A stretch of DNA of 13,704 bases from a bacterium (GCA_030429345.1 JAUIFJ010000056.1:1-13704); one strand, 5' to 3'; shown: positions 281-13,704, counted from the stretch's first letter. Notes: generated from the sequence alone by a model not told the origin. Program-made: numbers and translations.

Positions 281-607
281 CTAGTCTTCCAGCCCCAGCC
301 TGTACTTGATGATCGTGGGATCACGCTCAATTGTCTTGAGCAGCACGGCCGTCGCGCCGGACGGGGGATTGGATCCCCGTTCCCACTTGGAGACTGCGAT
401 TTTGCTGACGCCCAGGACCTGGGCGAAGACGTCCTGGCTGAATCCCAGGCTTTCCCTGATTCTCGCCACCTGACTGGGCGAGATGCTCGGGGGCTTGATC
501 TCCAGCCCTACGCGCTTCAGGTCCCTGGCCGTGATGCCAGTGGCTTCGCCGGTGCCAAGAAGAGAGAGAAGCATCTCCCGCAGCTCCTGCTTCAGACGCT
601 TGGACAT
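281..607 (-). CDS. XRE-family HTH antitoxin (HigA-like)
   Basis: The 108-residue protein has a central Xre/Cro-type helix-turn-helix at about residues 45-90. The pattern includes IRESLGFSQDVFAQVLGVS and then VSKWERGSNPP, typical of HigA/NadS-like antitoxins that bind the operon's own promoter and neutralise the partner toxin. Residues 1-40 are the probable toxin-facing or dimerisation arm. The ATG at 605-607 is preceded by AAAAGGA at normal spacing. The gene follows the toxin gene by 40 bases on the same strand, so the order is toxin first, as in higBA rather than relBE. Regulation is probably autorepression of the promoter at 1023-1051. The HTH assignment is strong; the antitoxin role is inferred from the neighbour. 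Confidence 0.85.
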   Translation of the reverse strand: MSKRLKQELREMLLSLLGTGEATGITARDLKRVGLEIKPPSISPSQVARIRESLGFSQDVFAQVLGVSKIAVSKWERGSNPPSGATAVLLKTIERDPTIIKYRLGLED

Positions 608-647
608 TGACTTATCCTTTTCTGTGTCACAACTATGACTGGTTCTG

Positions 648-1016
648 TTACTCGATCTGTTTCAGTTCACCGCGCTCGATCAGCCCTTGAATGGCTTGAT
701 CGCTGAGCTCGGCGTACAACTGACTGATCTGCTTCGTAGCCTGCAAAAGCTCCTTGCTCAGGTTGTCTGCATCTGTTTTCTGGAATCCGTGAAGGAAAAT
801 CACCCGCTGTTCTTCTACCCATGTGGCGTAGACGCGGAAGCCTGCGCTAGCACCCCGGTTGCCGCGGGCAACGCGCAATCGCCAGAGATGGTGTCCCAGT
901 GACTTGGAATCTGCCAGACCGGCCTTCAGGTCTTCAACCGCCTTCAGCAGTTGCTTGGTCTGGATTTTGTTCTTCCGCGCCCAGCGCTGGAATCCGAGGG
1001 TGATCAGATTTTTCAT
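648..1016 (-). CDS. RelE/HigB-type toxin, probable mRNA interferase
   Basis: The 122-residue protein matches my memory of the short RelE-like family of Pfam PF06296. Hallmarks are RWARKNKI near residue 11, LRVARGNRGASAGFRV at about 47-62, IFLHGFQKTDADNL at about 73-86, and a helical tail ending in an ELSDQAI...ERGEL motif. Members of this fold usually cleave mRNA on the ribosome, with basic and aromatic residues forming the active surface; that activity is inferred from the family. It is first in a two-gene operon with the HTH antitoxin. The -10 box ends only 6 bases before the ATG, so there is almost no leader and no Shine-Dalgarno at normal spacing. In a phage such a pair could stabilise the prophage or exclude competing phages. 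Confidence 0.85.
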   Translation of the reverse strand: MKNLITLGFQRWARKNKIQTKQLLKAVEDLKAGLADSKSLGHHLWRLRVARGNRGASAGFRVYATWVEEQRVIFLHGFQKTDADNLSKELLQATKQISQLYAELSDQAIQGLIERGELKQIE

Positions 1017-1766: not shown

Positions 1767-2480
1767 CTATCCTTCCATTTCGCTTGTGTTGCATTCAAAC
1801 TCTCCGGCCCGGTTTTCCAGCGCGGCCTGCAGCTCACCGTCCACCACGTGGGCGTAGATCGCCGTGGTCGACGGGGATTCGTGGTCCATGGCCCGCTGCA
1901 CAAGCCGCAGGTTCTGGGTCCGGTTCAGCAGGCTGGTGGCAAAGGTGTGCCGCAGGGTATGGGGGTGGACGTGCTTCTCAATCCCTGCCAGCCGCGCCCA
2001 GTGGACGACGATTCGGCGGACCTGGCGATCGGATAGCCTGGTGCCATCCCGGCCCTCGAATAGCGGTTCATCCCCCTCGCGATTGTGAATCATGGGCCCC
2101 AGGTGCTCCCGGGTCTCTGCCGGCAGGAACTTGGACCGCAGCTTCCCGCCCTTGGTCTGTAGCCGAACCCGCTTGTCCACCAGGTCGATATCCCCCACCG
2201 ACAGCCCAACGGCCTCCGCGACGCGCAAGCCCGTGTCGAGCATCAGGCACAGGAGTGCCCGGTCCCGGTCGCGGAAGGGCTGATCGATCCGGGCTTTCAG
2301 CACCTGGCGCAATTGCCGCTCCTCCCCCTCGGTCAGGAACTGGGGGATCCTGCGCACGGTCCGCGGAGCCCGCAGGTCCTTCAGCTGACGTGCAAGCGGG
2401 TGGTCCAGCCAAGTGTAGAAGGCGCGCAGGATGACAAGTCTGCGGCTGGTAGTACTGCTGGCCAAATCGTTTCGGGCCAT
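1767..2480 (-). CDS. tyrosine recombinase / phage integrase (catalytic part; N-terminus frameshifted)
   Basis: This frame encodes the last part of the core-binding domain and a complete catalytic domain. Counting from the Met at 2480, Arg86 (TGLRVAEAVGLS), Lys110/113 (QTKGGKLRSK), His174 and Arg177 (HPHTLRHTFAT), His200 (MDHESPSTT) and Tyr209 (IYAHV) supply the R-K-H-R-H-Y set of XerC/D-like integrases that cut and rejoin att sites. The Met at 2480 is unlikely to be the true start. The same frame carries convincing core-binding sequence upstream of it (HVRELSRFEAFC, at about 2535-2570), but it has no ATG, GTG or TTG there. The missing first 20 or so residues are found in another frame that begins at 2638 with a perfect ribosome-binding site. 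The gene is therefore frameshifted near 2570, either truly broken, recoded, or affected by a sequence error. It heads an operon with two unknown small genes. Confidence 0.85.
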   Translation of the reverse strand: MARNDLASSTTSRRLVILRAFYTWLDHPLARQLKDLRAPRTVRRIPQFLTEGEERQLRQVLKARIDQPFRDRDRALLCLMLDTGLRVAEAVGLSVGDIDLVDKRVRLQTKGGKLRSKFLPAETREHLGPMIHNREGDEPLFEGRDGTRLSDRQVRRIVVHWARLAGIEKHVHPHTLRHTFATSLLNRTQNLRLVQRAMDHESPSTTAIYAHVVDGELQAALENRAGEFECNTSEMEG

Positions 2481-2760: not shown

Positions 2761-4353
2761 GTGACAAACCGAACAGGGGCCGATCCGCCGCTTTCGAAGG
2801 ATGATCTGGCACTGGCGGAGATTCTGCTGGATCCGGTGAAGTTCGCCGCGGCCTTCATGCGCTCGCTGGACGCCCCGGAGCCGAACACGCCGCTCATTCT
2901 CTGGCCGCACCAGCAGGAGGATGTGCGGGACAACCACCCGCAGATCGTGCACCAGGACGGACGCGCGGTGGGCAAGACCGTGGACATCACGGTCCTTGTC
3001 TGCCACGAAGGTGTGACAGGCAAGAATTCCAAGACGCTGATCACCACGCCCAACGAGGGGCATCTGCAAAAAATCATCGAGGAGGTGGAGGACCAGATTT
3101 TCGGGTCCGATTTCCTGAACGCCCAGGTGGCCGTGGATCCCCGGTCGGGACGGCAGCTCATTACCCGCAAGCCCTACTACCAGATCAAGTGGAAGTCGGG
3201 GGTGATCCAGTATTTCCGGCCTGCAGGTTCCGCGGGGGCGGCCGTTCGATCCCTGCACTGTGCGCGGGTCATTGTCGACGAGGCCGCGATGTACCCGGAG
3301 GCGGCGTGGAAGGCGGTGTTCCGGGTGCTGAATCCGGGCGCCCAGCTCAGGGTGTACACGAATCCCAACGGCCTCAGGAACACCCAGTACTACCGGCTGA
3401 CCCAGGATGGCTCGGGATCCAAGGTCTACAAGTGGCCCAGCTGGATCGTCCCCACCTGGACCCAGGCAGACCGGGAGATGGCGATTCGGCGCTACGGCGG
3501 GGAAGACAGCCCGGGCTACCAGCACGAGGTGGCGGGAGAGCACGGGGCACCCAGTTACGCGGCCTTCAACCACAAGCAGTACCAGGGCTGCGAAAGAAAG
3601 CTCGAGGGCCGGTACCGCTGCGTGCGCATCGAGGGCGAGGAGTTCGTGGCCATCCAGAGCGTGGACGAGGCGTGGGACCGGCTGGCCTACCGGTTGGACC
3701 TGCAGGAGCGTCCGGGCGGCACCTTCTGGCTGGGAGGGGACCTGGGCTACACCAACGACCCCTCGGAGCTGACGGTCTGGGAAGAGGACGAGAAGGGACG
3801 GCTGATCCCTGTCCTGCGCGTGCACAACGAACGCCTGCCCTACACCTACCAGGCAGCGCTGATCGCCATCCTCGACGACCACTTCGCCTTCGCCGGCCTG
3901 GGCATCGATGGTGGATCGAACGGCGCGGCCGTCGAGCACATCCTGACCACCGAGGACCGCTACGCCAACTACCAGTTCGCGCACCGCCTGGTGGCCTTCG
4001 ATTTCGGCGGCTCGACCACCGTGGGCTACGATCCGGAGGGCCGGCCCAAGACCCGGTACACCAAGGAGCTGATGACCAGTCTGATCAGCGGCCGGCTTTC
4101 CAGCCGCACGATCCTGTTTCCCGCCGAGGGCGTGGATCCGGACTGGGCGGACCAGTTCCTGCGCCAGACCTACAGCATCATGCCCAGCGGCCGGATTGTC
4201 TACAGCAAGGGCAACGACCACATCATCGACAGCGCGCGGACCGCGATTCTGAGAATCGAGCGTGAGCGCCTCAAGCAGTACGACACGAACGACCAGGGGC
4301 TGGTCAAGGCGGAGTTCGTGATGCCCGTGATGACCGGGAAAGTCTTCGAGTAG
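2761..4353 (+). CDS. terL: phage terminase large subunit (packaging ATPase-nuclease)
   Basis: This 530-residue protein drives DNA into the prohead and cuts it. The ATPase domain shows a Walker A GRAVGKT at residues 67-73, a Walker B ARVIVDEA ending near residue 175 (Asp173, Glu174) and a coupling-type motif YTNPNG near 199-204. The C-terminal RNase H-like nuclease has candidate metal-binding acidic residues Asp327 (GGDLGYTND), Asp383 (GIDGGSNG) and Asp490 (DHIIDSAR). The length is normal for the family. The start is GTG at 2761, preceded by AGAAGG; the GTG lies inside a copy of the repeated octamer GTGTGACA. The next gene's Shine-Dalgarno overlaps its stop, so the packaging genes are one operon. 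No small terminase gene is seen beside it; the integrase occupies that place. Confidence 0.93.
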   Translation: MTNRTGADPPLSKDDLALAEILLDPVKFAAAFMRSLDAPEPNTPLILWPHQQEDVRDNHPQIVHQDGRAVGKTVDITVLVCHEGVTGKNSKTLITTPNEGHLQKIIEEVEDQIFGSDFLNAQVAVDPRSGRQLITRKPYYQIKWKSGVIQYFRPAGSAGAAVRSLHCARVIVDEAAMYPEAAWKAVFRVLNPGAQLRVYTNPNGLRNTQYYRLTQDGSGSKVYKWPSWIVPTWTQADREMAIRRYGGEDSPGYQHEVAGEHGAPSYAAFNHKQYQGCERKLEGRYRCVRIEGEEFVAIQSVDEAWDRLAYRLDLQERPGGTFWLGGDLGYTNDPSELTVWEEDEKGRLIPVLRVHNERLPYTYQAALIAILDDHFAFAGLGIDGGSNGAAVEHILTTEDRYANYQFAHRLVAFDFGGSTTVGYDPEGRPKTRYTKELMTSLISGRLSSRTILFPAEGVDPDWADQFLRQTYSIMPSGRIVYSKGNDHIIDSARTAILRIERERLKQYDTNDQGLVKAEFVMPVMTGKVFE

Positions 4354-4361
4354 GAGGATCC

Positions 4362-5942
4362 ATGCACATTCGTGATCTGTGGCCCTGGGGTCAGCGGCCG
4401 GCGATGAAGAGCGAGGGTGTAGCACACGAGCCGGCGCCCGCGTCTGTTAGCAAGGAGCTGGAAGCCGATTCCGTGATCGATGCCCCGGCGCTGAACTCGA
4501 GCGCCGCGACCATCGATCCCTTCGGCAGCCTGCTGACCACGGAGGGCGTTCCCAAGGACTGGCGCGACCGGGCCAAGCGGGCCTGGAAGTACTACCAGGA
4601 AGAGCCCATCGTCAACAACTGCATCAACGCCTGGCGTACCCTGGCCCTGGGCGAGGACTTCACCATCCTGTGCTCGGATTCCGAGCTGAAGAAAGAGCTG
4701 CTGGAGCTGAAGCGGCGGCTGGGGCTGAAGCGCTGGCTGAAGGACCAGCTGCTGCAGCTATTGACCAAGGGGGAAGCCGCTGCCTTCAAGGAGTACGGCG
4801 GCGCACCCACCGGCAAGAACGAGGATGGCCGGCCTACGTATACGGACTTCGCGCGAGTCAAGGTCTTGAACCCTGCGGACTTGAAGCCCACGGTAGAGGA
4901 CGGAGCGCTGGTCAGGGTCCTGCCGCTGATCACTCAGATCGAGGGCGGGGAGCCCACAGAGGGCAAGCCGATTCCGCTTCCGCAGTTCCGCCGCTGGATC
5001 TGGGACGCCCCGGACTTCGCGGAACATGGAACGTCCATGATCCTACCGGCCTTCGAGTCCATCGAGCTGCTGCGTGACTACCGGCGCGCGGACCGCGCGA
5101 TCGCCAAGCGCTGGGCCACGCCGATCCGACTGATCCAGGTGGGCGGCCAGTTCGGCCGCCAGGTCGTGATGCCGACCCAGGCGCAGATGAACGACGTGAA
5201 GAAGACCTTCGACAACATGGACCCCAAGCAGGGGGCGGTGGTCCCGTTCTACGTGGAGGTCAAGACCTACGGCGCCGAGGGCGAGGCGCTGAAGACGGAA
5301 GAGAAAATCAAGGAAGCCAAGACCGACATCATCGTCGCCATGGGCTTCACCCGGGCGCTCGTGTCCGGCGATGGCTCCAACTTCAGTACCGCCAGCATGG
5401 GCTTTGCGAAGATCCAGCTGATGCTGGCCGACCTGCGGGACATGGCACACGAAATGCTGGCCTGGGTGATCGACGACTACCTGGAGATGAAGGGCAAGCG
5501 GGACGCGGATGTCCAGATCGTCTTCCCCGGCATCGACTTGTCTGCCACGTCGGACACGCGGAAAGTCCTGGTGGAGATGTACGACAGAGGCCTGATCTCG
5601 GTCAACACCCTGCAGACCATGATCGGGCTGAACCCGGCAGTCGAAACGGCGCAGATGAAGAGTGAAACCCGCCAGGTGGCAGCACCGCTGACGCCCGGCG
5701 ACATCGTGGGCCTGGCCCAGCAGGGCATGCTGACCAATGAGCAGGTGGCCTTCCTCTTGAACCTGGCCGAGCGGCTGCAGGGCTTTCAGGGCAAGGAACC
5801 TTCCACGGAGGATCCGGAAGCCGGCGCAAGCATGACCGGCGATCCCAGCGGCCTGTATCACGCGGTGAATCGGCAACTGGAAGAGAGTGCGCGCGCCCGG
5901 GTGGACAAGCTGCTGGCCACGCTCGACGACCAGGCCGCGTGA
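4362..5942 (+). CDS. phage portal protein
   Basis: This 526-residue protein is very probably the portal, the dodecameric ring at the unique capsid vertex through which DNA enters. After a variable, Ser/Ala-rich N-terminus (about 1-60) comes a long alpha/beta body. A typical C-terminal portal signature follows: an AMGFTRALVSGDGSNFSTAS segment at about 328-347, then a long helix (MLADLRDMAHEMLAWVIDDY) and RGLISVNTLQTMIGLNP near 410, as in many siphophage and myophage portals. ATG 4362 has AGGAGG 6 bases upstream, and that site overlaps the terminase stop. Its own stop overlaps the GTG start of the MuF gene (5939-5942), matching the usual portal-MuF pairing. The identity rests on order and on these motifs. 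Confidence 0.88.
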   Translation: MHIRDLWPWGQRPAMKSEGVAHEPAPASVSKELEADSVIDAPALNSSAATIDPFGSLLTTEGVPKDWRDRAKRAWKYYQEEPIVNNCINAWRTLALGEDFTILCSDSELKKELLELKRRLGLKRWLKDQLLQLLTKGEAAAFKEYGGAPTGKNEDGRPTYTDFARVKVLNPADLKPTVEDGALVRVLPLITQIEGGEPTEGKPIPLPQFRRWIWDAPDFAEHGTSMILPAFESIELLRDYRRADRAIAKRWATPIRLIQVGGQFGRQVVMPTQAQMNDVKKTFDNMDPKQGAVVPFYVEVKTYGAEGEALKTEEKIKEAKTDIIVAMGFTRALVSGDGSNFSTASMGFAKIQLMLADLRDMAHEMLAWVIDDYLEMKGKRDADVQIVFPGIDLSATSDTRKVLVEMYDRGLISVNTLQTMIGLNPAVETAQMKSETRQVAAPLTPGDIVGLAQQGMLTNEQVAFLLNLAERLQGFQGKEPSTEDPEAGASMTGDPSGLYHAVNRQLEESARARVDKLLATLDDQAA

Positions 5943-8900
5943 GCCTGCCCTGGCACACGGGGCTGGACCAGCCTACTCTGCAGGCCCTGGTCTCCGAGGG
6001 CCTGCTGCTGGTTCGCGGCTCCCGCGCCTGGGCCGCGTTCAGCCCCTCGCAACGGGAGCTGATCGAGGAGGCGACCGCCCAGTCCCTGGCCCAGGTGGGG
6101 AAGATGACGGACCAGGTGCTGGTGCAGTCGCTGAAGCAGCTGGACCAGGCGGCCAAGGCCATCCACGCCGAGGTCCTCAAGCTGGGGGATCTCTCGCAGT
6201 TCACGGGAGACCGGCTGCCAGGCAAGCAGGTCGAGCTCGCGCGGCTGAAGGCGCTGGAGAAGTCCATCCAGCAGACGGGCGCGCGGCTGAAGAAAGACCT
6301 GCAGCTGGTCTACAAGGGCGTCACACAGGAAGCGGCCACAGCCGGCATCGAGGGTGTGCTTTCCAAGTTGGGGGCGCTCAAGCTCCCGGGCTACAAGGAC
6401 CTTCCGCTGGTCGACAAGCAGGACCTGGCAGCCGGGGCCTTCAGCCTCGTCAGCGACCAGGCCTTCGACTTCCTGACCGGCTATCAGCTGCAGCTGCTGG
6501 GCAAGCTCTCCGACGATCTGGTGGCCGGCACCAAGGCCGCCATCTCCGCTGGCATCCTGCAGGGCCAGGGCCCGGCGCGCATCGCCCGTCAGATCGGCGA
6601 CATCGTCACCGACCCCGCGGAGTTCAAGAAGGCCGGCAAGACCGTCTTCCGCAGCGTCCAGCATCGCGCCGAACTGATCGCCCGCTCGGAGACCATGCGC
6701 GCCTACAACCAGGGGGCGCGGAAGTTCGAGCAGCAGATTGGTGTCACGCGCCTGACCTGGCTGACCGCGGGGGACGAGCGCCTGTGCCCCGAATGCGAGC
6801 CCCTGGACGGCCGCGAGTACGCGATCGAGAAGTTCCCGCCCCAGCCGCTTCACCCCGCTTGCCGCTGCACCCATGTTCCAGCGCCCGGATCACTGGACCA
6901 GATCAAGGACCTGCCGGCCATCCAGGAGGTGGTGACGAAGCACACGCTGGGCCAGCAGGCGGTGAAACAGGCGCTGAAGACCGGGGATTTCTCCGCCCTG
7001 ACGGTCCGGCAGCTGCGCGAGCTGGCCAAGCAGAAGGGGATCCCGATTTCCCGCTCGAAGGCCTACCAAACCCAGCTGCTTGCCGATGTCTCTGGACTCG
7101 ATGTGTCACACCTGCAAGGCCTGAGCACCGCGGAGTTCAAAAAGCTGCTGAAACAGCACAAGGTCAGCCCGATCAAGTCCCGCGAGGACCTGGTGAAGGA
7201 CCTGCTGGGCGAGGGGGCGGAAAAGCATGCGGCCAAGCTGGCGGCGCTGAAGCAGGCGGAGAAGGCGGCGAAAGAGGCAGCGGAGAAAGCCAAGATCGCT
7301 GCCCAGAAGGCGGCCGAGGAAGCGAAGGCCAAGCAGGAAGCCACCGAAGCCCTGTACTCCAAGGTGGGGAAGCTGGTAGAGACCGCGAAGCCCGAGACCT
7401 TCGATGCGTATTACACGGCTGCCTATGAAGTGGGGGCCGTCCTGGAGAACGCGCAGAAGGTGCTGTCCATCGAGGCCCTCAAGCCGTTCAAGGCCCAGAT
7501 CGCCAAGGCCTACGATGGCTTCCTCGCCTCACTGAAGGGCATGAAGCAGAAGCAGCTGCGTGATCTGCTCAAGGCACACGGGGTCAAGAACTTTCAGTGG
7601 TACACGAAGGACGAGACCCTGTCCTACATCCTGAACCCGGAGAAGCGACCGGAGCTGATCGCCCAGGTGGCACAGAAACTGAAGGCGGTGAAAGCGAAGA
7701 ACGCGGCGAAGAAAGCCGCAAAACCGAAGCCCGTGCCGCCGGAGCCCAAGGCCCCGGTAATCCAGCTGGCCAACCAGGCGGATCAGGAGTGGGAGGCGCT
7801 CAAGGACGGCAGCACCTTCGTCTTCGACGGCGACGCCCGCAGCCTGGGCGGCGCGCACTCCAAGTATTTCTTCCGTGATGCGAATGGCAACCGCTGGCTG
7901 TTCAAACCGATTGCCGAGGAATTCCGCGCATGGGGCGATGAGGTGGCCTACCGGATCCAGCGGGAGATCGATCCCAACGCCGTGGAAGCCCGGTTCATCC
8001 GCTTGGAGGTGAAGGGCCGCCGGCTGGCCGGCTCGATTCAGCGGATGAAGACCGGGCTGAAGGAAGTCAGCGACTACGGCGGCCTGGGACTGGACACACT
8101 GCAGGCGGAGGAGCTGCTGCAGCTGCAGCGTGAGCACGTGATCGACTGGCTGATCTCCAACCACGACAGCCATGTGAACCAGTTTCTGCGCGCGCAGGAT
8201 GGGAAGGTCTACGGCATCGACAAGGGGCAGTTGTTCAAGTTCTTCGGCAAGGACAAGCTGAACCTGACCTACTACCCCAACCGGGTACACAATGCGGGCG
8301 AGCCCGTGTACAACCAGCTGCTGCGCCTGCACCGGAACGGGAAGATCCAGCTGGACCTTGGGGCCACGGAAGAATTCATCCGGCGCGCCCAGGCGATCAC
8401 GGACAGTGCGTACAAGGAGATGCTGCGGCCCTATGCGGAGCGCCGGTTTGCCGGTCAGCCCGGAGCCCTGGCCGACTTCCTGAACGGGGCGGTGAAGCGC
8501 AAACAGACGCTGCGCGAAGACTTTGAGCGCCTGTACAGCGAGGTGGAATCCGCGCGGACGGGAAAGAAGGTGACCTTCCGCTTCGGAGAGAAGGGGCCTG
8601 CGGCGCCGGCACCCGCTGCACCCGCGGATGCTCCAGAGCTCACCTGGGGGCGCGACGCTCGCTTCGATCTGTCACACGAGGTCAAGGAGATCCGGGACAA
8701 CGGCTGGCAGGGCAAGTCCCTGGGCATCGATTCGGATCAGATCGAGGACCAGAATGTCCTGGTGCGCGAGGTCCTGCTGCCCGGGGGCGGGAAGCGCACG
8801 ATGATGGAGCTGCGGCTTCGTCCTGAGGCCGATCAACGACTGACCCAGCTGCTAAAGCAGCAGGCAGGGCACTCGCCGTCAGAAGTGTATACGGACAACT

Positions 8901-10348
8901 ACTGGCATTCCATCCTGAACGCGGCGAAGACAGTGAACCATCATCTGTCCGATCTGGGATTCAATGACAGTACGATCAATACGATGCTGTCTCACGGCCC
9001 TGAGCTTCTGAAGCTGGCCAAGGCTGGAAACGTGGTTGAGCGAAAGATGGCGGCGCAGTACCTGGATGCCATGGAGCAGATCCAGCAGAAGGTTGTGGCG
9101 GCCAGAGCGGGCAAGACACCGGATCCGCTGCCGATCCTGAAGCAGTTCCAGGCGGATCCCAAGGATTTGAAGACCCTCAGCAAACCGGTGGCTTCTGATC
9201 CAGAGTACACAGTGACCGTGCGCGATCGTGTGACAGCGGACCGCACGCGCGCCAAGGGCGATCGCCTGGTGTTGGAGAAGGACAACGTACCGCTGAGTGA
9301 GTTCGATCACCGGCTCGCCGATCAGGCGGCGGAGTTCGAGGTCGACATGGGTGACGGCATCCAGGTGGTCTACCGTCCCTACCGCAGCCTGACGCAGCAG
9401 CACCTGTTCGCGGTCCAGGGCCGGATGACCGTGCGCGCCGCCGGCAAGGTCAGCGAGGCCCGGGTGGCACAGGCTCTGCAGAAGCTGCAGAAGCTGGGAC
9501 TGGACACCACGCCATCGACGGCAGCCCAGGAAGAGCTGATGTACTTGCAGAAGACGGCCTACGCCGCCAACATGGACCAGACGCCGCTGTTCCAGCAGGC
9601 GGCAGCCCGAGCCGCGGAGGCCGAGTCCACGGAGGCCGCGGTTGCCGTGTGGCGTGAGGCCTGGTCCTCTCAGCTGGGCGTGCCGGACGCGACCAAGCTT
9701 CCGGCCTACAAGCCCCAGGGCCACTACCAGTATTCCACGGTGCGCGGTGCCGGCAGCCAGGGCGGGATCCGCGTCCAGGAGCGCTTCGACCTGGACGACA
9801 AGACCTTTCAGAAATCGATGAAGGGACACGTCCTGGTCCATGAGATCACGAAGGGCGATATCGAGGAGTTTTTCGAAGTTGTGCTGCCGACGAACCGGGC
9901 CTTCGTTCCCACCGCTGATCGTTTCACCTCCGGTGTGCCGATCGGCGGGATGAGCCCCGGTTCCGACATGAATTCCGGCGGGGCCAGTTACTTTTTCACG
10001 CGCATCAAATCGCGCAGAAGCCTGGGCGGGGATCAGATCCGATTCAAAATCGACATGCTGAAGCGCGCGGACGCAATCAGCTATCCCCGTGACCTGTTCG
10101 GTCGTGTGACAGGAACAACAGTGCGGGACAACCGGCGCAGTGATCTTGCAGGCTTCAAGGCCAACGCGAGGTCCTCGAGCAACGAAACGGACTTCAAGGG
10201 GCCGGTCACCATTCTGGACAACCTGGATTCAATCGGTGTGCGCAGCCCCTTGAAACGAGATCGACTCTTGAAGACCTTCCGCAAGAATGGTATCACGGCC
10301 CTGCCCGACGGCAGGCCCATCGAAGATGTGATTGTGGTGGCCAATTGA
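5939..10348 (+). CDS. giant MuF-type head protein with kinase-like and ADP-ribosyltransferase-like segments
   Basis: This 1469-residue protein is three to five times the usual MuF length. The MuF (phage Mu gpF-like) head-morphogenesis domain ends at about residue 312: AELIARSETMRAYN (244-257), then Cys283, Cys286, His305, Cys308 and Cys310 in DERLCPECEPLDG and LHPACRC. SAP/HeH-like units follow at about 354-384, 395-423 and 535-565, with an Ala/Lys/Glu coiled coil at about 428-475 and a Lys/Pro-rich linker near 600. Residues about 625-800 look kinase-like (Lys656, Glu668, Asp743, Asn747, Asp761). A long helical, partly beta region follows. The last 170 residues carry a possible ADP-ribosyltransferase triad: His1301 (LVHEIT), Tyr1351 (GGASYFFTRI) and Glu1416 (NETDF). 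The GTG start overlaps the portal stop by 4 bases with no good Shine-Dalgarno, suggesting coupled translation. MuF is firm; the enzymatic roles are inference. Confidence 0.88.
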   Translation: MSLPWHTGLDQPTLQALVSEGLLLVRGSRAWAAFSPSQRELIEEATAQSLAQVGKMTDQVLVQSLKQLDQAAKAIHAEVLKLGDLSQFTGDRLPGKQVELARLKALEKSIQQTGARLKKDLQLVYKGVTQEAATAGIEGVLSKLGALKLPGYKDLPLVDKQDLAAGAFSLVSDQAFDFLTGYQLQLLGKLSDDLVAGTKAAISAGILQGQGPARIARQIGDIVTDPAEFKKAGKTVFRSVQHRAELIARSETMRAYNQGARKFEQQIGVTRLTWLTAGDERLCPECEPLDGREYAIEKFPPQPLHPACRCTHVPAPGSLDQIKDLPAIQEVVTKHTLGQQAVKQALKTGDFSALTVRQLRELAKQKGIPISRSKAYQTQLLADVSGLDVSHLQGLSTAEFKKLLKQHKVSPIKSREDLVKDLLGEGAEKHAAKLAALKQAEKAAKEAAEKAKIAAQKAAEEAKAKQEATEALYSKVGKLVETAKPETFDAYYTAAYEVGAVLENAQKVLSIEALKPFKAQIAKAYDGFLASLKGMKQKQLRDLLKAHGVKNFQWYTKDETLSYILNPEKRPELIAQVAQKLKAVKAKNAAKKAAKPKPVPPEPKAPVIQLANQADQEWEALKDGSTFVFDGDARSLGGAHSKYFFRDANGNRWLFKPIAEEFRAWGDEVAYRIQREIDPNAVEARFIRLEVKGRRLAGSIQRMKTGLKEVSDYGGLGLDTLQAEELLQLQREHVIDWLISNHDSHVNQFLRAQDGKVYGIDKGQLFKFFGKDKLNLTYYPNRVHNAGEPVYNQLLRLHRNGKIQLDLGATEEFIRRAQAITDSAYKEMLRPYAERRFAGQPGALADFLNGAVKRKQTLREDFERLYSEVESARTGKKVTFRFGEKGPAAPAPAAPADAPELTWGRDARFDLSHEVKEIRDNGWQGKSLGIDSDQIEDQNVLVREVLLPGGGKRTMMELRLRPEADQRLTQLLKQQAGHSPSEVYTDNYWHSILNAAKTVNHHLSDLGFNDSTINTMLSHGPELLKLAKAGNVVERKMAAQYLDAMEQIQQKVVAARAGKTPDPLPILKQFQADPKDLKTLSKPVASDPEYTVTVRDRVTADRTRAKGDRLVLEKDNVPLSEFDHRLADQAAEFEVDMGDGIQVVYRPYRSLTQQHLFAVQGRMTVRAAGKVSEARVAQALQKLQKLGLDTTPSTAAQEELMYLQKTAYAANMDQTPLFQQAAARAAEAESTEAAVAVWREAWSSQLGVPDATKLPAYKPQGHYQYSTVRGAGSQGGIRVQERFDLDDKTFQKSMKGHVLVHEITKGDIEEFFEVVLPTNRAFVPTADRFTSGVPIGGMSPGSDMNSGGASYFFTRIKSRRSLGGDQIRFKIDMLKRADAISYPRDLFGRVTGTTVRDNRRSDLAGFKANARSSSNETDFKGPVTILDNLDSIGVRSPLKRDRLLKTFRKNGITALPDGRPIEDVIVVAN

Positions 10349-10848
10349 GTGCAGCGATTGAAGCAAGGGATGAGCTCCAGAAGTATACGAGCTCGCTTTT
10401 CGGGGAGTTCGGTCTGAAACTGGATGTCGATTTTCAGGATGGCTCACAAGTCCTACACAGTTTTCTAGGTGGGCTTCGTGTGCTACGAGCGACACCCATC
10501 TTTGATCGCAGTGATGGCAGTATCCAGAAGTATCGCTACCTGTTGATGTTCGTTGACCAAGGTGTGATAGACTTGGTGAATGCAGGCAATCCGGTGCACG
10601 TATTCGAGTGCGAAGTGACCAAACAGACAGGCCATTCCTGTTGGCTTCGTGAAGTGGACGGCCCCTTGGCTTTCCTGCTATCGAAGAACGATCCCCACTC
10701 CTTCGATGAGCGCCAGGAGGCAGCCTACGCGGCATGGGACCAGGAGCTCGCGCGCTTCGGTGGGCAGAAGAAGCTGGACCAGCGGCTCGACGAACTGGCA
10801 GCCCGCCAGCTGAAAGACTGGGAGTGGCACGAGAGGCACAATCAATGA
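10345..10848 (+). CDS. unknown protein, candidate accessory or immunity gene of the MuF effector
   Basis: I do not recognise this 167-residue protein. The N-terminal two thirds have mixed alpha/beta character (for example KYRYLLMFVDQGVIDLV near 63-79). The C-terminal third is helical and charged (FDERQEAAYAAWDQELARFG, then LDELAARQLKDWEW). There is no signal peptide or membrane helix. The start is TTG at 10345, overlapping the MuF stop as TTGA, so it is probably translated by coupling. By hand count GC is about 51% over 10381-10680, against about 67% at 10741-10800 inside the same gene, so it looks mosaic. Its position directly behind a C-terminal effector-like domain is where immunity genes of polymorphic toxins sit; a head-completion or chaperone role is the main alternative. 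Confidence 0.7.
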   Translation: MSAAIEARDELQKYTSSLFGEFGLKLDVDFQDGSQVLHSFLGGLRVLRATPIFDRSDGSIQKYRYLLMFVDQGVIDLVNAGNPVHVFECEVTKQTGHSCWLREVDGPLAFLLSKNDPHSFDERQEAAYAAWDQELARFGGQKKLDQRLDELAARQLKDWEWHERHNQ

Positions 10849-11153
10849 TCGTCCGCTACTTCTATGTGCACGACATTGAGTCTGGCCGCAAAGCCCCCAT
10901 CGGCGCCTGGATCGTCGACCAGGACAAAGCCTTCCACTATGTCTTCCATCCCGACTACTATTTCTCGGATGAGCTGACTGCTTCTCATGTAATCGATCGC
11001 ATGATCGAGGAGAACCAGGACACGGTGGCCGAGGGCTTTCTTGAATACTGGCAGCCAAATGTAGGCTATTACCGCTCGGCCACGGAGATCCACACCGAGA
11101 CCGTAGACGACCTGCAGATTTTCCTGGACCGGATGCAAAAAGCCGTCCGCTAG
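10845..11153 (+). CDS. small acidic, aromatic-rich unknown protein
   Basis: This 102-residue protein, unrecognised, starts MIVRYFYVHDIESGRKAP and is rich in Tyr, Phe, His and acidic residues, with a beta-rich first half (AFHYVFHPDYYF) and a helical C-terminus (VDDLQIFLDRMQKAV). The frame is open further upstream, but the ATG at 10845 is preferred: it overlaps the previous stop in ATGA, has GAGAGG upstream, and avoids reading through the previous gene out of frame. It belongs to the same coupled chain as the MuF gene and the 167-residue gene. It could be a second immunity or accessory protein, or an unrelated head-module gene. Confidence 0.7.
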   Translation: MIVRYFYVHDIESGRKAPIGAWIVDQDKAFHYVFHPDYYFSDELTASHVIDRMIEENQDTVAEGFLEYWQPNVGYYRSATEIHTETVDDLQIFLDRMQKAVR

Positions 11154-11230: not shown

Positions 11231-13704
11231 ATGCATTTGTGCGAGACGGTGATGCCCTTTCTGACCGTGGAAGCCGCCCTGTTTCCCGAACTGTGTGCCG
11301 AGGCCAAGGGGCCTCCCATTCATGGCGTGCAGTACATCGGGAACAAGCGCCAATCCCTTGACTGGATCCGGGCCCAGGTCCCGGACGGGGTGACGCGCGT
11401 GGTCGATGCTTTCTCCGGCGGGGGCAGCGTCTCCTACATGTTCAAGCGCGAGGGATACCATGTAATCGCCAACGACTCCCTGAAATGGCCCTGGCACATC
11501 GCGCGGGCCACCGTGGTCAATCAGGGCCAGAAGGTGAGTGAGGATGAGGTGAAAGCGCTGCTGGAACCGAATCCGAAGGCCGGCAGCTGGGCGCGCACGC
11601 ACTACAAGACCAAGTTCTGGAAGCCGGGGGTCCACCAGCTGGTGGATGAGATCCGCGAGAACGTGGACGCCTTGTCGGGCTTCAAGCGCGACATCGCCCT
11701 CGCCGCCCTGGGGGCCACCATGCTTTCGGCGCGCGGCACCTTCCCCCAGTTCACGGTGCCCAAGATCGGCGAGAGGGCGTACACGCCAAAGCAGTTCAAG
11801 GCGCGCTACGCCCAAGTGATCCAGCGGCTGAACTCGATGGTGTTCAAGGGGCCCAAGGCCGAGGCCCGCTGTCTGGACGTGCGCGCTTTGCTGAAGACCG
11901 TCAAGGCCGATGCCGTGTACTTCGATCCCCCCTATGTGTCCGGCATCCTTACCCACAACTACAGCTACTACTACCACGCGGTCGAAGCCGTGATGGTGAA
12001 GGGCGAGGGCCGGAATCCGGATCCGGAGACCGCGGGCTCGACGGAGAAGACCCAGGAGAGCCTGGGCAAGAAGAACATCGGCCCGTTCTTCGAAGAGCTC
12101 TTCGCGGCAGCAGAGCACATCCCCACCTGGCTGCTGTCCTACCGGGACGCGGCCTTCCCTTCCGAGAAGGAGCTCAAGGAGCTGATCACGGCGGCAGGCC
12201 GCGAGGTCGACCTGCAGTCCCGCGAGCACGAGTACACGATGGCCGGGACAAAGCGGGGAGAGGCACCATCGAAGGCGAAGGAGCTGCTCTTCATCGGCCG
12301 GAAGGGCAAGCAGGCAAAGAACACGCAGCAGAAAGCGCCGGCAGCGGCGTCCAAGGCAAGCACGAAGGAGGACCCGAGGATGAAGGTGCCGAGCATTCAG
12401 CTGGCCGCGCAGGATGCCGCGCTGCCTGCGGACTACTGGACCCAGGAAGCACGCGCCATCGTGGCCGAGCACGGCTGGCCGGGCCTGGCCCTGGCCTGTG
12501 CCGTGGTCGACGCCGACCACCCGGGATGCGAGCTGGAGGACGGGCTGCCCAAGGCCTTCGAGGCCTACCACCTGCCGGTGATGCAGCGCGCCGAGAACGG
12601 GGAGCTGAAGGTGCTCCCCGCCGCCGTGGATTCCTCGATCGCCGCGCTCGCAGACGAGGGCGGCCGCCCGCGGCTGCCCGCCCAGGCACTCTCTCTGGCA
12701 GAGAAGAAGCTGCAGTCCCTGAAGGACTGGAGCCTGGCCTGCGAGGCCGTGGATGCTTTCGCCAGCCTGTCCGAGGAGGAGACGCAGGGGGTGACGGCCC
12801 CGCCGGCGCCCGTGGTTCCCGAGGGCACTCAGCTGCTGGCCATCGCCGGCAGCGGACCCCGTGTGCTGCCCATGCTCTCCAAGGCCCAGCTGGTGGCCGT
12901 GGCGGCCAAGGAGGACGAACAGGGCGATCACGCCATCAAGTTCATCCTGTGTCACGCCGGGACCAACAAGAACGGCGATCACTTCACGGCCGAGGAGCTG
13001 AAGAAGGCGGTCACGTCCGCGGCGGGCGTCAAGATCAACCTGAAGCACGGGCAGCAGGCGCAGGACATCGTCGGCAAGACCGAGACTGCATCCTTCGAGG
13101 ATACAGACGGCGGCCGCATTGTCTGCGCCGGCCGGCTGTTCACGAAGGAGGATGAGCTGGCGGCCAAGGCGCGCCGGCTGATCAAGGAGAACATCATCAC
13201 CAAGGTCTCGATGGAGTGCAGCTACACCGAAGGTGAGTGCTCTGTCTGCGGCGAGACCTACAAGAACTTCGACGAGCGCTGCGAGCACCTGAAGGAGAGC
13301 AAGGGCGGCACCGTCGACGGCAAGGAGGTCTACGCCATCCTGAAGGGCGTGACCTTCAGCGGCGCCGGCCTTCTGGAAGGCTACGAGCCCGCCGATCCCC
13401 GGGCGGACATCACCTCCATGGCCTACGAGCGCGACGGCCGCATGCACGCCATGTCCTACGGACTCTACGGGCCGTCGGACAAGCCCGAGTCCATGAAGGA
13501 AGTGCTGAACCAGGAAGAGATCCGCGAGGACCTGTGGAAGACGCAGGACGCCTTTCGCCGGGTCACCGATTCCCTGGTGATGTCCTTCGTCAAGGAGAGC
13601 AGCGAGCTCTCGGACGTTGAAAGCAAGCTGAAGAAAGCGGGGGCCGACTTCGCCGGCCGCGTGATCCAGATCCTGAAATCCATCAACACCAACACGGACA
13701 AGGA
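11231..13704 (+). CDS. DNA adenine methyltransferase fused in frame to a prohead-protease-like domain (3' end outside window)
   Basis: One frame stays open for at least 824 codons to the right edge. Residues 1 to about 355 form a D12-class (Dam-like) N6-adenine methyltransferase: GVQYIGNKRQSLDWI (32-46), the AdoMet-binding VVDAFSGGGSVSYMF (57-71) and the catalytic DPPY (232-235). A Lys/Ala/Gln linker follows (about 356-383). From Met384 comes a region of unknown fold and then a capsid-maturation-protease-like domain. That domain has HAGTNKNGDHF near 575, His606 (NLKHGQ) and Ser660 (KVSMEC) 54 residues apart, a CxxC...CxH cluster (Cys670, Cys673, Cys684, His686) and a VTFSGAGLLEGYEPADPRAD segment. 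The protease would process head proteins before DNA filling. The ATG at 11231 lacks a Shine-Dalgarno; Met at 11252 is an alternative start. An internal start at 12380 could make the protease alone. Confidence 0.8.
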   Translation, partial: MHLCETVMPFLTVEAALFPELCAEAKGPPIHGVQYIGNKRQSLDWIRAQVPDGVTRVVDAFSGGGSVSYMFKREGYHVIANDSLKWPWHIARATVVNQGQKVSEDEVKALLEPNPKAGSWARTHYKTKFWKPGVHQLVDEIRENVDALSGFKRDIALAALGATMLSARGTFPQFTVPKIGERAYTPKQFKARYAQVIQRLNSMVFKGPKAEARCLDVRALLKTVKADAVYFDPPYVSGILTHNYSYYYHAVEAVMVKGEGRNPDPETAGSTEKTQESLGKKNIGPFFEELFAAAEHIPTWLLSYRDAAFPSEKELKELITAAGREVDLQSREHEYTMAGTKRGEAPSKAKELLFIGRKGKQAKNTQQKAPAAASKASTKEDPRMKVPSIQLAAQDAALPADYWTQEARAIVAEHGWPGLALACAVVDADHPGCELEDGLPKAFEAYHLPVMQRAENGELKVLPAAVDSSIAALADEGGRPRLPAQALSLAEKKLQSLKDWSLACEAVDAFASLSEEETQGVTAPPAPVVPEGTQLLAIAGSGPRVLPMLSKAQLVAVAAKEDEQGDHAIKFILCHAGTNKNGDHFTAEELKKAVTSAAGVKINLKHGQQAQDIVGKTETASFEDTDGGRIVCAGRLFTKEDELAAKARRLIKENIITKVSMECSYTEGECSVCGETYKNFDERCEHLKESKGGTVDGKEVYAILKGVTFSGAGLLEGYEPADPRADITSMAYERDGRMHAMSYGLYGPSDKPESMKEVLNQEEIREDLWKTQDAFRRVTDSLVMSFVKESSELSDVESKLKKAGADFAGRVIQILKSINTNTDK
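12365..12382 (+). promoter_or_regulatory. internal ribosome-binding site and ATG before the protease part
   Basis: AAGGAGG (12365-12371), 8 bases and then ATG (12380-12382), in frame with the methyltransferase and lying exactly at the end of the low-complexity linker. It is a better initiation site than that of the full-length frame. It predicts a nested protein starting MKVPSIQLAAQDAAL, in which the putative catalytic pair would be His223 and Ser277. Confidence 0.6.

Follow-up and report, generated by a model that had tools for sequence, protein, structure and literature searches.

A giant MuF head protein of a phage lineage with predicted kinase and DarT-like ADP-ribosyltransferase domains

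MuF proteins take their place at the portal side of the phage head during assembly, and the locus described here raises the question of why one of them should run on into two domains with the folds of enzymes. The window (the whole stretch of DNA analysed, 13,704 nucleotides, GCA_030429345.1 JAUIFJ010000056.1:1-13704) is the entire contig C62 of one 4.2 Mb genome and encodes a giant protein of 1469 residues that begins with a MuF domain and continues into a predicted kinase, a middle domain and a predicted ADP-ribosyltransferase (ART). The giant protein is probably a two-enzyme effector carried in the virion and entering the cell with the DNA, as judged from structural models and sequence comparison. 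An initial annotation of the window had proposed a MuF protein of this length behind a portal gene and ahead of two small unknown genes (here S1 and S2), and the open reading frame (ORF), the portal gene and both small genes were all found in that order.

The kinase-like segment proposed in the same annotation was borne out by an AlphaFold2 (AF2) model of residues 605-1245, built from a 44-row alignment (predicted local distance difference test, pLDDT, 86; predicted template modelling score, pTM, 0.50), which supports a kinase fold of the PI4K/HipA/Fam20 type at residues ~605-885. The first 270 model residues match PI4KIIalpha with a VIA Z of 15.8 (234 residues, 3.7 Å), and further kinase matches are CtkA (14.0), Fam20A (13.2), Fam20C (12.8) and actin-fragmin kinase (11.3). 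In an alignment of 112 sequences D743 is invariant; among the rows that have a residue at the site, D761 is never replaced and K656 differs in a single row. The residue at position 748 varies between Gln, Asn and His. With the PI4KII/CtkA/HipA/Fam20 kinases the domain shares the fold, the ATP-binding Lys, the catalytic Asp and the metal-binding Asp, whereas it has its own signature (NHDxHxxQ...IDKGQ) and stays below the cut-offs of TIGR03843, weakly matched by 22 of 23 relatives, and of HipA_C, matched by 17. Kinase-PolyVal (PF18762) gave no match in the Pfam scans of these 23 members, and that family matched no searched genome, controls included.

For the C-terminus, also proposed to be ART-like, an AF2 model of residues 1240-1469 from a 38-row alignment (pLDDT 86, pTM 0.84) supports an ART fold closest to DarT. 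E. coli DarT1 was matched with a VIA Z of 10.6 (158 residues, 3.2 Å) and other DarTs with 9.2-10.1 (DarTG 10.1), the next families being SopF (6.6) and tRNA 2'-phosphotransferase (5.7). In a Foldseek search against the PDB the 15 best E-values all belonged to ARTs (DarT, SopF, CopC/OspC3), none of them passing E 0.001, and the best matches among viral models include baculovirus and iridovirus proteins and one phage minor capsid protein; the arthropod-virus ORF28 ART family has been linked to DarT-like enzymes (PMC9503650). H1301 and E1416 are invariant in 42/42 sequences, plasmid versions included, as are R1282, G1332, S1339, R1355, D1378, Y1382, D1385 and G1388. DarT1 requires the ART glutamate E152 plus R52, M71 and N104 (PMC11543638). 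Besides the fold, the window domain shares with DarT (PF14487) a conserved His and a Glu at the catalytic position. The single stretch aligned in weak DarT hhalign comparisons pairs E1416 with the DarT glutamate, which is the only one of the required DarT1 residues that could be paired; for the Arg (R51/R52) and the base-reading residue the sequence alignment was too weak. It differs from DarT in that the PF14487 profile had no match in the window protein at E 1 and no DarG or NADAR partner was found. Profile searches against PDB sequences with the whole chain and with the kinase-middle and ART alignments gave nothing convincing. Plain structural folds without conserved catalytic residues would have refuted the effector interpretation; the opposite was seen, predicted kinase and ART folds with their catalytic positions conserved.

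At the other end of the chain, PF04233 (MuF) scored 50.1 bits against a cut-off of 29.6, in a gene placed after the portal, and TIGR01641 also matched (E 2e-14). The SAP-like repeats of the initial annotation recur in relatives, where Pfam scans matched SAP in 9/23 and Rho_N in 8/23, but the matches are weak and below cut-off, that of SAP (PF02037) at residues 350-371 reaching 21.1 bits (E 2e-4) against 23.9. As for the coiled coil proposed in that annotation, residues 425-475 are rich in Ala, Lys and Glu.

Searches with the kinase segment gave 64 loci in IMG/VR and 34 more in GTDB genomes; with one ART segment as the query, IMG/VR returned no relatives. The GTDB relatives include complete Desulfosarcina chromosomes and drafts of Ectothiorhodospira, Armatimonadetes, Acidobacteriota and others, and identity over the whole chain is about 33-38% in most relatives. 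Because relatives sit in chromosomes, the lineage is suggested to consist of temperate phages. The giant gene recurs in the window's own genome, on contig C90 and as fragments on C86 and C33. Between the C62 and C90 copies, whose proteins are about 96% identical with no C-terminal hotspot, the codon differences number about 270 synonymous and 54 non-synonymous, spread along the chain and its C-terminus. This synonymous excess means that the giant ORF is not a chance product, and the codon comparison indicates that the chain is under purifying selection, C-terminus included. Judged by its alignments, the giant protein is no one-off: it is what a phage lineage found across many phyla regularly has as its MuF protein.

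The domains also occur apart and in other company. In three relatives (L015, L022, L023) MuF is encoded separately, by a 287-aa gene immediately upstream of a kinase-ART chain that has no MuF of its own. In cyanophage Pan1, gp15 combines MuF with the middle and ART domains, and no kinase was detected in it. The same kinase appears in other phage chains as MuF + NUDIX + kinase + exotoxin-type ART, as ART + MuF + kinase + ART, and as MuF + ART-PolyVal + kinase + ART; the NUDIX, exotoxin-type ART and ART-PolyVal domains beside it are known injected-type enzymes. Mycobacteriophage Onyinye gp16, annotated as an ADP-ribosyltransferase, has the kinase and is encoded upstream of terminase and portal, and McProf, a kinase-ART prophage, encodes an ADP-ribosylglycohydrolase far from its kinase-ART gene.

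Outside phages, the C-terminal ART domain was found by tblastn in 26 actinobacterial plasmid records. In all five plasmids examined the kinase and the middle-ART part are adjacent genes without MuF, and this argues against a purely structural role. On Kitasatospora pKP058 the kinase protein matches with an hhalign E of 1e-25; the gene after it matches the ART with E 2e-20 and the middle domain with the value given in the table below. The pair lies near conjugal transfer, lytic transglycosylase and Replic_Relax genes, and in 25/26 records a fusion of an ADP-ribosylglycohydrolase with a phosphatase (ADP_ribosyl_GH-DSPc) lies 4.5-18.7 kb from the ART, its HCxxGxxR motif intact as HCVAGRSR in 3/3 checked; a Mycolicibacterium plasmid is the record without the fusion. 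One Streptomyces record, NBC_00829, had the fusion and no ART match, and on examination it carries the pair. A nearby ATPase gene was found in 120 plasmids, 31 of them at >=60% identity, and five of those 31 had come up neither with the ART nor with the fusion. In the two of these five that were examined, sister Streptomyces plasmids related to the kinase-ART ones (L158 21892-28672, L159 21934-28914), three amidoligases occupy the slot of the pair, with a gamma-glutamylcyclotransferase downstream on the opposite strand. Together, the fusion near the ART in nearly all records and the amidoligase swap suggest that plasmids carry matched cassettes of modifying enzymes (writers) and enzymes that would reverse them (erasers).

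The general kind of protein is already known, since MuF-effector fusions, ARTs included, and polyvalent proteins have been published (PMC5512222, PMC9503650, PMC5576092); the MuF-kinase-middle-ART architecture was not found in the literature searched. Like the MuF polymorphic toxins (PMC5576092), the window lineage has MuF first, enzyme domains last, the gene after the portal, small genes downstream and apparently temperate phages as carriers. It differs from them in joining two enzyme folds in one chain, in its known hosts, mostly Desulfobacterota and other non-Firmicutes, and in a C-terminus that is conserved and not swapped between close relatives. The variable C-terminal tip that the initial annotation named for MuF proteins of some temperate phages was not seen, the chain being conserved end to end across phyla at about 35% identity; this, with the even spread of differences between C62 and C90, rules out a variable-tip polymorphic toxin within the lineage. 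Polyvalent proteins (PMC5512222, PMC9503650) are likewise large chains of many domains, ART and kinase among them, and likewise occur both among virion genes and on plasmids; the window protein has what defines them, more than one effector-type domain in a single chain encoded beside virion or transfer genes. It differs in matching neither the Kinase-PolyVal nor the ART-PolyVal profile and in its PI4KII/HipA-like kinase, DarT-like ART and conserved middle domain. T4 Alt offers the same proposed logic, a head-carried ADP-ribosyltransferase delivered with the DNA. The transferase itself is not Alt-like: Alt is of the R-S-E type, whereas the window domain is DarT-like in fold with a His...Glu pattern and no match to PF03496; relatives such as McProf gp54 do have the exotoxin-type ART.

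As an effector, the giant protein would be set at the portal side of the head by its MuF end during assembly, and its C-terminal part would enter the cell with the phage DNA at infection. There the atypical PI4KII/HipA/Fam20-fold kinase and the DarT-like ART may each modify host molecules in favour of the incoming DNA, much as T4 Alt modifies host proteins. Delivery of enzymes with DNA is favoured because the catalytic positions are conserved and the domains are reused in two DNA-delivery settings. Several points weigh against it. Where related kinases have a metal-binding Asn, most relatives have Gln (Asn is present at position 748 in some mycobacteriophages and on plasmids); sequence profiles do not place the ART in DarT, the hhalign probability being 0.5%; neither S1 nor S2 had a match on the plasmids; a search of the window's genome found no ADP-ribosylglycohydrolase or macro domain, the writer-eraser pairing being seen on plasmids; and the plasmid co-occurrences are not fully independent because the plasmids share a backbone.

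The same enzymes could instead arm a MuF weapon that kills or inhibits competitors or superinfected cells, with S1 and/or S2 giving the lysogen immunity. DarT enzymes are bacterial toxins (PMC11543638), the small genes follow the giant gene in most relatives as they do for MuF toxins (PMC5576092), and S1 diverges faster than its surroundings, at 82-86% identity between copies in one genome against about 96% for its neighbours and the giant protein. We regard such a weapon as unlikely, given a C-terminus that is conserved across phyla under purifying selection and small partners that neither match a known family nor are detectably common to the plasmid or Pan1 versions; hhalign gave no link between S1 or S2 and the small genes after the Pan1 and McProf-type versions. 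The weak resemblance of a gene at another locus (L097) to S2 reached an hhalign probability of 15%.

The position of the gene in the packaging module, with a DNA methyltransferase and protease-like region as the next large gene, and the ability of the DarT fold to act on DNA would fit enzymes that work in assembly or on the phage itself, modifying packaged DNA, portal or capsid, for example in DNA protection or packaging timing. This seems quite improbable, as the pair is kept on plasmids, where no capsid genes are annotated in the regions examined, and the kinase is absent in Pan1 or partnered with a different ART elsewhere. That both domains lack catalytic activity and contribute to the head purely as structural or binding elements, as the structural nature of MuF proteins and the Gln in most kinase domains might suggest, is very improbable: Lys/Asp/Asp and His/Glu are near-invariant across very distant relatives in two delivery contexts, and the candidate eraser fusion near the plasmid pair combines activities that would match both of those predicted.

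If the giant protein is the virion-carried effector proposed here, a phage lineage of many phyla would inject two protein- or DNA-modifying enzymes in one chain, and the same pair on large Streptomyces plasmids would link phage infection with conjugation through a shared set of effectors. Concrete, testable writers and one candidate eraser would then be at hand. More tentatively, and with the balance of our judgement somewhat against it, phages and conjugative-type plasmids may share a portable two-writer cassette that enters with the DNA and is reversed by the two-eraser fusion, the plasmid set being exchangeable for the amidoligase/gamma-glutamylcyclotransferase set; such a cassette would amount to a general, reversible takeover of the recipient cell by incoming DNA. 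The analysis also brings to light two families unnamed in the libraries searched, one of kinases and one of DarT-like transferases.

Table. Features of the window and predicted domains of the giant protein, in window coordinates.
Feature	Position	Strand	Basis
RelE-type toxin (PF06296) and HTH (helix-turn-helix)/MqsA-like antitoxin gene	281-1016	-	
Tyrosine recombinase (PF00589)	1767-2480	-	just before the terminase gene, opposite strand
Terminase large subunit	2761..4353	+	PHROG 2, E 6e-25; position kept in relatives
Portal protein	4362..5942	+	PHROG 2739, E 5e-30; order conserved in relatives
Giant MuF-kinase-middle-ART protein, 1469 aa, GTG start	5939..10348	+	whole-length relatives
MuF domain, residues 200-311	6536..6871	+	PF04233, E 5e-13
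SAP/Rho_N-like repeats, residues about 350-422	6986..7204	+	sub-threshold SAP and related matches
Predicted PI4KII/CtkA/Fam20-like kinase domain, residues about 605-885; K656, D743, Q748, D761	7751..8593	+	AF2 model, VIA, conservation
Middle domain, residues 901-1239, fold unassigned; travels with the ART domain	8639..9655	+	alignment including cyanophage Pan1; plasmid protein, hhalign E 2e-13
Predicted DarT-like ART domain, residues 1240-1469; H1301, E1416	9656..10345	+	AF2 model, VIA, invariant residues
S1, small gene, fast evolving	10345..10848	+	after the giant gene in most relatives
S2, second small gene	10845..11153	+	after the giant gene in most relatives
D12-type DNA adenine methyltransferase with in-frame protease-like continuation	11231-13702	+	PF02086, E 5e-22

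The start of the giant ORF overlaps the end of the portal gene, and the order terminase, portal, giant gene, S1, S2 and methyltransferase-protease is common to relatives. S1 and S2 showed no link to known families. Beyond the methyltransferase, the continuation weakly resembles head-maturation proteases; the two parts stay joined throughout the lineage, and a second copy of the methyltransferase is often present. Elsewhere, genes after MuF-kinase-ART chains at two loci (L060 9853-11217, L061 11846-13297) resemble, by eye, more effector-type proteins, and in a Rhodopirellula metagenome-assembled genome a pair of transposases resembling an insertion sequence breaks the giant gene near residue 1301 (L092 4825-6072). 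Stand-alone relatives of the kinase, 300-350 aa long, occur in genomes of the candidate phyla Uhrbacteria and Magasanikbacteria (L102, L103, L104).
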